Assembly: GCA_023250585.1 (NCBI GenBank)
Contig: JAHFAK010000107.1
Location: 1 to 8,011, forward strand
From: Deltaproteobacteria bacterium
Lineage (GTDB): Bacteria; Bdellovibrionota_F; JAHFAK01
Direction: 5' to 3'
DNA length: 8,011 nucleotides
The number at the start of each line of letters is the position of its first letter. The first letter of the stretch is position 1. The position numbers were made by a program, and so were the translations under genes. This document shows positions 1,690-3,431 of the stretch, in pieces. Below the pieces are notes generated by a model. The model saw only the letters and a program-made list of their open reading frames with translations, had not been told where the DNA came from and did no database searches.

Positions 1690-1779
1690 AAAAAAGGTAC
1701 CCGGCAAGTCTAGGTAAAAAAATGACAATTACGTGCATGTACCTTTTTGTCGGAAAACGGACCGAAAGTTGCCGGGCAC
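1690..1779 (-). promoter_or_regulatory. leuS leader with two overlapping inverted repeats ending in a T run
   Basis: On the minus strand, the 10-base arm at 1739-1748 (AAAAAGGTAC) is perfectly complementary to 1691-1700 (GTACCTTTTT), which is extended to six T's by base 1690, 14 bases before the leuS ATG. Separately, 1769-1779 (minus GTGCCCGGCAA) can pair with 1697-1707 (minus TTGCCGGGTAC) over 11 positions with one G-U. The second pairing uses the loop of the repeat hairpin and shares bases with the first, so the two structures exclude each other. This is an attenuator-like geometry, but no T-box or other known leader was recognised. No convincing promoter for leuS was found in this gap. The pairings are seen in the sequence; a regulatory role is inference. 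Confidence 0.35.
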
Positions 1780-1811
1780 GTTTCGGTCTCCGTTTTGGTC
1801 TCGATCAAATG
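1734..1811 (-). repeat. Intergenic hairpin repeat, copy 1 (3' of the secreted protein gene)
   Basis: This copy matches 3356-3431 in direct orientation. Positions 1734-1788 and 3356-3410 align without gaps and are identical at 53 of 55 bases; the weaker similarity beyond, including CGAT and AATG, runs towards the stop codon of the neighbouring gene. The core is GACCGAAA (1760-1767) and TTTCGGTC (1781-1788) around a GC-rich loop. It is followed by a near-tandem 12-base unit, CGTTTCGGTCTC then CGTTTTGGTCTC. It is far more GC-rich than its surroundings. The shape resembles REP/BIME-type elements, but no REP-associated transposase lies in the window and the family is not known to me. Confidence 0.85.
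1754..1791 (-). terminator. Candidate intrinsic terminator of the secreted protein gene, formed by repeat copy 1
   Basis: Read on the minus strand, the stem is CGG, a 2-base bulge, then ACCGAAA; it pairs with TTTCGGTCCG and is followed directly by TTTT. This gives about 10 base pairs. It begins some 33 bases beyond the TAA stop at 1824-1826. The T run is short, so termination may be partial and could let some transcripts run on into leuS. Confidence 0.5.
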
Positions 1812-1823
1812 GCTTAAGGGAGG

Positions 1824-3164
1824 TTAGAATAGTCCTTCTAAAAAAAAATCTAGATTCTGGAATGATATTAAGAGATCTTTCACAAAGCCTTCTTCAAAAC
1901 GATAAAAATTCGGTTGTTGTTGGACATGGCCTGTTAATTTATGGTGTTCTAACAAAAATTGAATTTTATTTTTCTGCTCTCTTATTCGCTGCTGTAATAA
2001 TTTTAATACATACGGTTTATTTTTATAGATGCCTTGATCTATATTTTTAAGAAATTGATTTATCCATAATTGAATTTCTTTAAGAACAATAACCAAGTTC
2101 TCGCAGTTTTCTCTATCTTGGGATATTTCTCTTGAAATTTGTCCTAACCCAAGCATGTATTCTATTTCATTTAACCTTTGATGTTCGAGCTTTTCAAGCT
2201 GGCGACTTGTTAGTTTTAGATTTTCGAGGAAATTACTCAAATTATTTGGAAATGATTTCGGACCATTGGTGATATCGAGCTCATATGTCTTTCGATGTAT
2301 CTGTTTCCTCAATTGAAAATCAACCTGTGGGTTAGCATTTTTGACTTTCTCCAAAAAGATGGAAAAAAATTGATCTTTAGAAAGATGAACAGAATCCCAA
2401 TCCAGCTGTCCATGTTCAATACCATGTAGGCCATACAAACGTAAAAGCCCATTGCAGAAATTCATAAACAAAGCGTGATTCCCTCTTACAAAGATATAAC
2501 GTGATTGTAGCGCTGTTTTATAAAATTCAGAGATTAAAAGAATTAATTTTCTTAACGGATATGTTATAACTTTTATATCTATGAATGTTTCTAATTGTTG
2601 TAAAAGCGAACCAATAAAATAATCTCCCAGTAAAGAACTTCCATTTGAACTAAATGCTCCAGCAAATTCTTGGAGATCAAGTGTAGGAGCAGTTTCTGGA
2701 TAATACGGAGTACTTCCATCCGTTCCAAGAAAGAGAATACGATTCATAACAGATAATCGTTGACGTAGCATATCACGTGTAAAATTTCCATGTGAAATAT
2801 CTTTTATAAGACGTAGGAAAGCGATCCTTAACTCTTGTTGGTTGTGCAAGTAGTTCTTCTGCATTTCTTTACTGCCAAAAGAACCGTAAAAAGATAAAGC
2901 ACTGTTTTGAGGTTGTGGCTGGAGCAATGGATCTCTTATGGTTTCTTCCCATGGAACTTCAAGAGCATACTCTAAATTTAAGTGTGGTAATAGTCTTTTG
3001 AATTCATCTTTTTCCCTTACCGTAATATCAGTTTTGGTACTTCTATCTTCAGTCTCAATTGAAGAGGCAGATTTTATCTTTCCAAACAATAAACTACAAA
3101 CTAATGCGTAACTTGTCGTATTGTAAAAAAATGATAGTATAAAAAAGAAAGTAATGGTTCGCAT
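1824..3164 (-). CDS. Secreted protein of unknown function with a possible degenerate Fic-like segment
   Basis: A 446-residue protein whose family I do not recognise. The N-terminus has a short basic start, a Phe-rich hydrophobic stretch (about 4-14) and a plausible signal peptidase site after SYA (18-20). C23 has no proper lipobox (A-L-V before it), so a soluble exported protein is more likely than a lipoprotein. Residues 204-256 are the most family-like: a helix, then IFVRGNHALFMNF and LRLYGLHGIEHG. The F-x-x-G-N spacing recalls the Fic motif HxFxxGNGRxxR, but the catalytic His is Tyr223 and the GR and final Arg are missing, so AMPylation activity is doubtful. Residues 311-410 are rich in Glu, Lys, Gln and Leu and probably form helices or a coiled coil. 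The gene has its own promoter with a perfect TTGACA, no clear Shine-Dalgarno, and a repeat/terminator directly after its stop. Repeats on both sides hint at transfer as a cassette. The coding call is firm; the function is not. Confidence 0.85.
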   Translation of the reverse strand: MRTITFFFILSFFYNTTSYALVCSLLFGKIKSASSIETEDRSTKTDITVREKDEFKRLLPHLNLEYALEVPWEETIRDPLLQPQPQNSALSFYGSFGSKEMQKNYLHNQQELRIAFLRLIKDISHGNFTRDMLRQRLSVMNRILFLGTDGSTPYYPETAPTLDLQEFAGAFSSNGSSLLGDYFIGSLLQQLETFIDIKVITYPLRKLILLISEFYKTALQSRYIFVRGNHALFMNFCNGLLRLYGLHGIEHGQLDWDSVHLSKDQFFSIFLEKVKNANPQVDFQLRKQIHRKTYELDITNGPKSFPNNLSNFLENLKLTSRQLEKLEHQRLNEIEYMLGLGQISREISQDRENCENLVIVLKEIQLWINQFLKNIDQGIYKNKPYVLKLLQQRIREQKNKIQFLLEHHKLTGHVQQQPNFYRFEEGFVKDLLISFQNLDFFLEGLF

Positions 3165-3196
3165 GGGTTTCTATAAAAAGCATCAAAGGCTTATAT

Positions 3197-3225
3197 TTTT
3201 TAGTATCAATGGCTCATATTGTCAA
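3197..3225 (-). promoter_or_regulatory. Sigma-70-like promoter of the secreted protein gene
   Basis: On the minus strand there is a perfect -35 TTGACA (3220-3225), a 17-bp spacer, and a -10 TAAAAA (3197-3202, 4 of 6 matches to TATAAT). Transcription would start near 3190, about 25 bases before the ATG at 3164. Confidence 0.55.
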
Positions 3226-3257
3226 TATTATTTGATAATATAATGACGCTCTTGTTT

Positions 3258-3272
3258 ATCTCTTCAAGAGAT
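3258..3272. promoter_or_regulatory. Dyad-symmetric site upstream of the secreted protein promoter
   Basis: ATCTCTT and AAGAGAT form perfect 7-base arms around a single central base. A nested pair, CTCTTG (3249-3254) and CAAGAG (3265-3270), uses the same right arm. The site lies 33 bases upstream of the -35 of the minus-strand promoter, a position where a dimeric regulator could bind. No regulator gene is nearby, so this is only a candidate operator. The 3165-3434 gap holds this dyad, the promoter, a hairpin and repeat copy 2. Confidence 0.3.
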
Positions 3273-3318
3273 ATTCTGGGAGCTACGGTGCCTGGTAAAT
3301 ATAAAAATAAATACCTCA

Positions 3319-3336
3319 GTGTCATTAGAGTGACAC
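3319..3336 (-). terminator. Short hairpin, possible second terminator for the ATPase gene
   Basis: GTGTCA (3319-3324) and TGACAC (3331-3336) are perfect 6-base arms around a 6-base loop. Read on the minus strand the hairpin is followed by TGAGG and an AT-rich stretch rather than a clean T run. It lies about 40 bases beyond repeat copy 2, so it could back up that terminator; equally it could be a protein-binding dyad. Confidence 0.3.
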
Positions 3337-3355
3337 ACTTATTTTAATAAAAAAA

Positions 3356-3431
3356 TGCATGTACCTTTTTGTCGGAAAAACGACCGAAAGTTGCCGGGCA
3401 CGTTTCGGTCCCGTTTCGGTCCGATTGAATG
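3356..3431 (-). repeat. Intergenic hairpin repeat, copy 2 (3' of the ATPase gene)
   Basis: The second direct copy of the element at 1734-1811, starting 1622 bases further on. It holds the same TGCATGTACCTTTTT lead-in, the same GACCGAAA/TTTCGGTC hairpin arms (3382-3389 and 3403-3410) and a perfect 11-base tandem duplication CGTTTCGGTCC (3401-3422). It ends a few bases from the ATPase stop codon, just as copy 1 abuts the stop of the secreted protein gene. Confidence 0.87.
3376..3410 (-). terminator. Candidate intrinsic terminator of the ATPase gene, formed by repeat copy 2
   Basis: On the minus strand GACCGAAA pairs with TTTCGGTC (8 bp, GC-rich loop) and GTTTTT follows at once. It begins about 25 bases beyond the TAA at 3435-3437. 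The hairpin, T run and position fit a rho-independent terminator better than in copy 1. Confidence 0.55.

Follow-up and report, generated by a model that had tools for sequence, protein, structure and literature searches.

A dispersed palindromic repeat family flanking a RAYT-like transposase gene in a Deltaproteobacteria bacterium

REP sequences of the GTAG type, together with BIMEs and REPINs, have been described with their RAYT transposases in E. coli, Pseudomonas and Stenotrophomonas (PMC2817692, PMC3733652, PMC6006769). The rayt genes are flanked by two inverted REPs, and each has a REP family of its own (PMC2817692; PMC6006769). Between convergent genes, REPs mostly lie at most 20 bp from both ORF ends, and the stop codon is often supplied by the end of the REP itself (PMC3733652). 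A second kind, the CGTC-tagged REPs, has been reported without a transposase (PMC3733652). In TIRtrons, RAYT-like proteins (TIRYT; Quentin subclass 2.1) are associated with self-complementary terminal inverted repeats, for which a GGGGWSAS motif has been published that is not universal among TIRs (PMC3733652). The repeat family described here, REP1, is a new sequence family of this known kind, an unremarkable mobile-repeat system in a bacterium that has received little study.

We identified REP1 in a stretch of 8,011 nucleotides, the window, which is contig C30 of an assembly of 2.24 Mb in 164 contigs. A repeat search of these 8 kb recovered a direct repeat of 55 nt at 1734-1788 and 3356-3410, identical at 53 of 55 positions (96%). 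A rough estimate puts the probability that such a pair arises by chance in this length at ~1e-20; the pair is real and well above chance. An imperfect palindrome of 29 nt, GACCGAAACGTGCC C GGCAACTTTCGGTC, is present in both copies, and 4-5 T come after it. In the minus-strand reading, GACCGAAACGTGCCCGGCAACTTTCGGTC shows zero differences between the two copies and is followed by CGTTTTCC in copy 1 and by GTTTTTCC in copy 2; the T count after the hairpin is 4 and 5 in the two copies, and CCGACAAAAAGGTACATGCA comes next. The hairpin begins downstream of the adjoining minus-strand gene, 35 nt beyond its stop codon in copy 1 (ORF 1824-3164) and 24 nt beyond it in copy 2 (ORF 3435-4763). These results confirm what the first-pass annotation had reported from the letters of the window, namely two direct 55-base copies beside the ends of minus-strand genes, each with a hairpin and then a T run on the gene strand. 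The hairpin core is present in the folds of each copy, with a z of about -1.3 to -1.9 against shuffles, which is moderate only.

Copy 1 is an old, decayed inverted pair, because a decayed inverted partner arm is found at ~1694-1718 (Table 1). The nhmmer alignment with the paired-element profile spans both arms of copy 1, giving a pair length of ~101, and the 14/19 match of the partner arm to the core was reached by 0 of 2000 shuffles. For copy 2, a candidate partner near 3287 matched weakly (11/19, p = 0.03) and was absent from the nhmmer alignment; we do not claim it.

Table 1. Positions of the repeat features and neighbouring genes in the window, and of the two RAYT-like genes on contigs C32 and C47.
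Feature	Positions	Strand	Basis or remark
Leucyl-tRNA synthetase gene, truncated at the contig end	3..1676	-	start just beyond copy 1
Copy 1, decayed inverted partner arm GGTACCCGGCAAGTCTAGG	1694..1718	+	nhmmer paired-element profile; 14/19 to core
Copy 1, conserved inner flank CGTTTTCCGACAAAAAGGTACATGCA (minus-strand reading)	1734..1759	-	
Copy 1, 29-nt imperfect palindrome (REP1 core)	1760..1788	-	T-rich left-like arm
Copy 1, outer extension resembling a partial arm duplication (GAGACCAAAACGGA..)	1789..1803	-	sequence
446-aa ORF upstream of copy 1	1824..3164	-	without Pfam match
Copy 2, conserved inner flank	3356..3381	-	
Copy 2, 29-nt imperfect palindrome (REP1 core)	3382..3410	-	T-rich arm
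Copy 2, outer extension, duplicated arm (..GGACCGAAACGG)	3411..3424	-	
442-aa AAA_14/DUF4143 ATPase gene upstream of copy 2	3435..4763	-	
RAYT1	C32:7085-7738	-	
RAYT2	C47:4515-5189		45% identical to RAYT1

The expectation that the repeat is a dispersed, multi-copy palindrome of the REP type was borne out in the genome. A 91-base query gave 49 matches, the 19-base core CGTGCCCGGCAACTTTCGG gave 42 with up to three mismatches (none for the reversed control pattern), and ~43 REP1 copies were counted in stretches taken from the genome. Among the 37 good copies, defined by at most five differences from the 29-mer, the core GCCCGGCA is invariant (37/37). The palindrome, GACCGAAA-CG-TGCC-C-GGCA-AC-TTTCGGTC, retains an internal mismatch in these copies, and the same kind of bulge is known from long REPs (PMC6006769). 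Beyond this genome, a search of 58 others, including one from the same class, gave no convincing REP1 copy; such a search of relatives had been proposed together with that for further copies of the core. The core GACCGAAACGTGCCCGGCAACTTTCGGTC was likewise absent from the public collections searched (genome and viral contigs), the full pair was absent from plasmids, and Rfam gave no match in the window.

Inverted pairs are common and have the form GACCGAAACG...GTACA - centre - TGTACC...CGTTTCGGTC, with a total length of 101-132 bp; in an alignment of seven of them the centre is conserved. Besides these longer pairs there are three tight palindromes of 65-66 bp, and the predicted energies of pairs and tight palindromes range from -59 to -83 kcal/mol. 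The tight palindromes (L039:5734-5798, L051:2649-2714, which is C159:21148-21213, and L058:29-93) are nearly perfect and consist of two arms joined by a spacer of 7-8 nt, the usual centre being lost. The two types of arm differ: TTTT follows the palindrome in six left-type arms and an A-run (AAAAA) in nine right-type arms. One or more extra GACCGAAACG units stand outside the palindrome in the window (1789-1803 and 3411-3424) and on contigs C34, C40, C92 and C94, and look like duplication of the arm end by slippage.

The genome carries two RAYT-like genes, RAYT1 and RAYT2. RAYT1 matches the NCBIfam model REP_Tyr_transpos (NF047646) with 69.6 bits (E 2.4e-19), below the cut-off of 80, and Pfam Y1_Tnp with 31.5 bits, above the cut-off of 23; RAYT2 reaches 66.4 bits (E 2.4e-18) with NF047646, also below the curated cut-off of 80. 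The motifs NHMH and YIYQNP lie 59 residues apart in RAYT1, which by motif matches class 2 of the HUH/Y1 family (Y---NP; PMC6006769). No relatives of these RAYTs were found by a pattern scan of genome contigs or in one genome of the same class, solved structures gave no sequence match, and with a pLDDT of 43.7 the AlphaFold prediction for RAYT1 was of too low quality to be informative.

RAYT1 is flanked by inverted REP1 arms, complete on the left and partial on the right. A right-type arm (C32:7028-7056) stands immediately past its stop codon. On the other side the contig ends with ...GTGCCTGTACCTTTTTGT, which is the inner block of a REP1 arm in inverted orientation; TGTACCTTTTTGT (C32:7867-7879) represents the first bases of this arm. 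The contig end cuts the arm after ~13-14 bases, so that the palindrome lies beyond it, and no other contig of the assembly carries this right junction. RAYT2 has a copy of GGTGGGGACCGACATATG to either side, the two being inverted relative to each other, at 4381-4398(+) and 5214-5231(-) (G000 contig C47, L040). This sequence is a separate palindrome family with 35 copies in the genome, partly in inverted pairs, and no control hits. Since RAYT2 is flanked by a palindrome different from REP1, each RAYT is paired with its own dispersed repeat, which is a published hallmark of REPtrons (PMC2817692, PMC6006769). At L040:2712-2785 the two families are joined: a REP1 arm stands directly against AAAAGGTGGGGACCGACATATGAATTCATATGTCGGTCCCCACCTTTT, a perfect palindrome belonging to the second repeat.

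REP1 thus resembles the GTAG REPs, BIMEs and REPINs in its short imperfect palindrome with an internal mismatch, in its many dispersed intergenic copies, in its inverted pairs with two arm types, and in a RAYT flanked by inverted copies, with one repeat family per RAYT and positions near stop codons. Unlike them, it has no GT[AG]G at its foot and only a moderate copy number, and its sequence core is not shared. In the 6 nt that border the palindrome to the left and to the right, GT[AG]G was found in 0/37 good copies. Like the CGTC-tagged REPs it is a dispersed palindrome, but the CGTC tag is absent as well (0/37). Because neither tag stands at the foot of any of the 37 copies, REP1 is a RAYT-associated REP/TIR repeat and not a canonical GTAG or CGTC REP. 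The two RAYTs share class 2 Y---NP and NHxH with the TIRtrons, and they are proteins of 217-224 aa with SS residues after the core; the repeats of this genome also lack GTAG and occur as dispersed pairs. The repeat of RAYT2 contains GGGGACCG, which matches the TIRtron motif GGGGWSAS at 7/8 positions, whereas REP1 has no GGGGWSAS. REP1 may belong with the TIRtrons, a subclass placement made by motif only.

The repeat is very probably the REP/TIR arm of a REP-like, non-autonomous putative mobile element that a RAYT mobilises in trans. What unites the family is its arrangement in inverted pairs and its position at the flanks of a RAYT gene, and it is best read as a REPtron or TIRtron whose non-autonomous, REP-like derivatives build up between genes, often directly beside stop codons. 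The caveats to this reading are that both RAYTs score below the NCBIfam cut-off, that the GT[AG]G foot is lacking, that the contig end truncates the right arm at RAYT1 before its palindrome and that the copy number is moderate (43, not hundreds). Most likely, RAYT1, of the HUH/Y1 family, would recognise the single-stranded REP1 palindrome, cleave the DNA there and rejoin it, and thereby would have spread the pairs of arms; we infer this action from work on TnpA-REP (PMC8266576) and from the association of repeat and RAYT. Single copies like those of the window would be decayed or half elements. Copies would survive mainly in intergenic DNA, often touching a stop codon, because insertion there is least harmful, and the closeness to stop codons fits insertion or survival where harm is least. 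An element sometimes contributes a gene's stop codon or its last codons.

The first-pass annotation had gone further and proposed that the element supplies intrinsic terminators and is tied to gene 3' ends. As a dispersed terminator module, REP1 would end the upstream gene by hairpin and T-run, and its copies would be kept for that purpose. Some copies, including both of the window, indeed resemble intrinsic terminators in that a hairpin is followed by T, and where an element adjoins a gene 3' end it lies very near the stop codon: the distance was at most 12 nt in 11/21 cases, as compared with 0/23 for gene 5' ends (p = 5e-5). The first bases of the element form the stop codon on contigs C132 and C32, and on C127 the element forms the last codons. 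This part of the proposed tie to 3' ends stands; the strong bias towards them, in one orientation, that had been predicted was not found. Using ORFs of at least 100 aa in the stretches around the copies, we placed 22 of 29 elements in intergenic gaps, the other seven being at contig ends, in overlaps or inside ORFs. The 22 comprise nine tandem, seven divergent and six convergent gaps, and do not differ from the repeat-free gaps of the same stretches (23 tandem, 13 divergent, nine convergent; p = 0.70). Unlike in intrinsic terminators, the T-run is not conserved: at least five T within the 8 bases after the hairpin occur in only 5/37 good copies and at least four T in 14/37. An A-run of at least four takes the place of the T-run in 21/37, because a pair has unlike arms on its left and right, and convergent pairs such as that of C22 have a T-run on one arm and an A-run on the other. 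By hand classification, T-runs were not significantly enriched at gene-3'-end copies (8/16 vs 6/21, p = 0.31). A scan for intrinsic terminators called neither window copy on the minus, gene strand; it made a plus-strand call at 1771-1787, and its total was near chance (6 calls vs 5.0 in shuffles). REP1 does not supply terminators as a family, and we consider the terminator module improbable. Individual T-rich copies may weakly terminate transcription or protect mRNA ends, a putative effect. A striking hairpin with a T-run beside a stop codon can thus belong to a mobile repeat instead of marking a terminator. On contigs C127 (L046, C127:6147-6185) and C95 (L050, C95:16736-16765) the last codons of an ORF read through repeat arms, and the element may have altered the C-terminus.

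A role at the RNA level, in which stable 3' hairpins block 3' exonucleases or favour Rho-dependent termination, as E. coli REPs reportedly do, and hence persist near stops, agrees with the very stable predicted folds and with the closeness to stop codons; PMC2817692, citing Espeli 2001, states that REPs facilitate Rho-dependent termination. Copies between divergent genes could not act in this way, and we regard such a role as rather unlikely. It would concern a possible added role only and is compatible with a RAYT origin: any influence on termination or on the stability of mRNA 3' ends would be a by-product of particular copies, with exonuclease block and Rho-dependent termination possible for those that are transcribed. 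The long inverted repeats around a short centre could also suggest MITEs that belong to a DDE insertion sequence, and the palindrome directly past a stop codon recalls the attC sites that follow integron cassette genes. Target-site duplications, however, are inconsistent in the pairs (matches of 2-3 bp in 3/9, none in 6/9), which agrees with the RAYT family and argues against a DDE element, and the arms flank a gene for an HUH-type transposase; the MITE reading is accordingly very improbable. That the copies are attC sites has next to no probability, as they are dispersed, form inverted pairs and also lie between divergent genes, and no integron integrase was found above cut-off, weak matches being of a kind seen in 14/14 control genomes. 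We rejected both readings.

Within the preferred reading of a RAYT-mobilised REP/TIR element, one can tentatively suggest, at less than even chance, that this RAYT-type transposase works with a GT[AG]G-free cognate repeat, and that recognition and strand choice would depend on the T-rich left and A-rich right arms and on the conserved inner block GACCAAAAGGTACA. If true, this would add an undescribed type of repeat to REP biology, in a sparsely sampled phylum. The genome, whose lineage has hardly any sequenced relatives, contains two transposase/repeat pairs, in each of which the transposase has a repeat of its own, and these two pairs offer a clean natural comparison of how RAYTs choose their repeats without the GTAG guide.

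Elsewhere in the window, 5970-8009 encodes an open protein of 680 aa with a hydrophobic N-terminus, many Cys and no Pfam match. It contains HTLVHEVGHVVD, a zinc-metallopeptidase-like HExxH motif, and its N-terminus is similar to that of the neighbouring ORF at 4923-5861.
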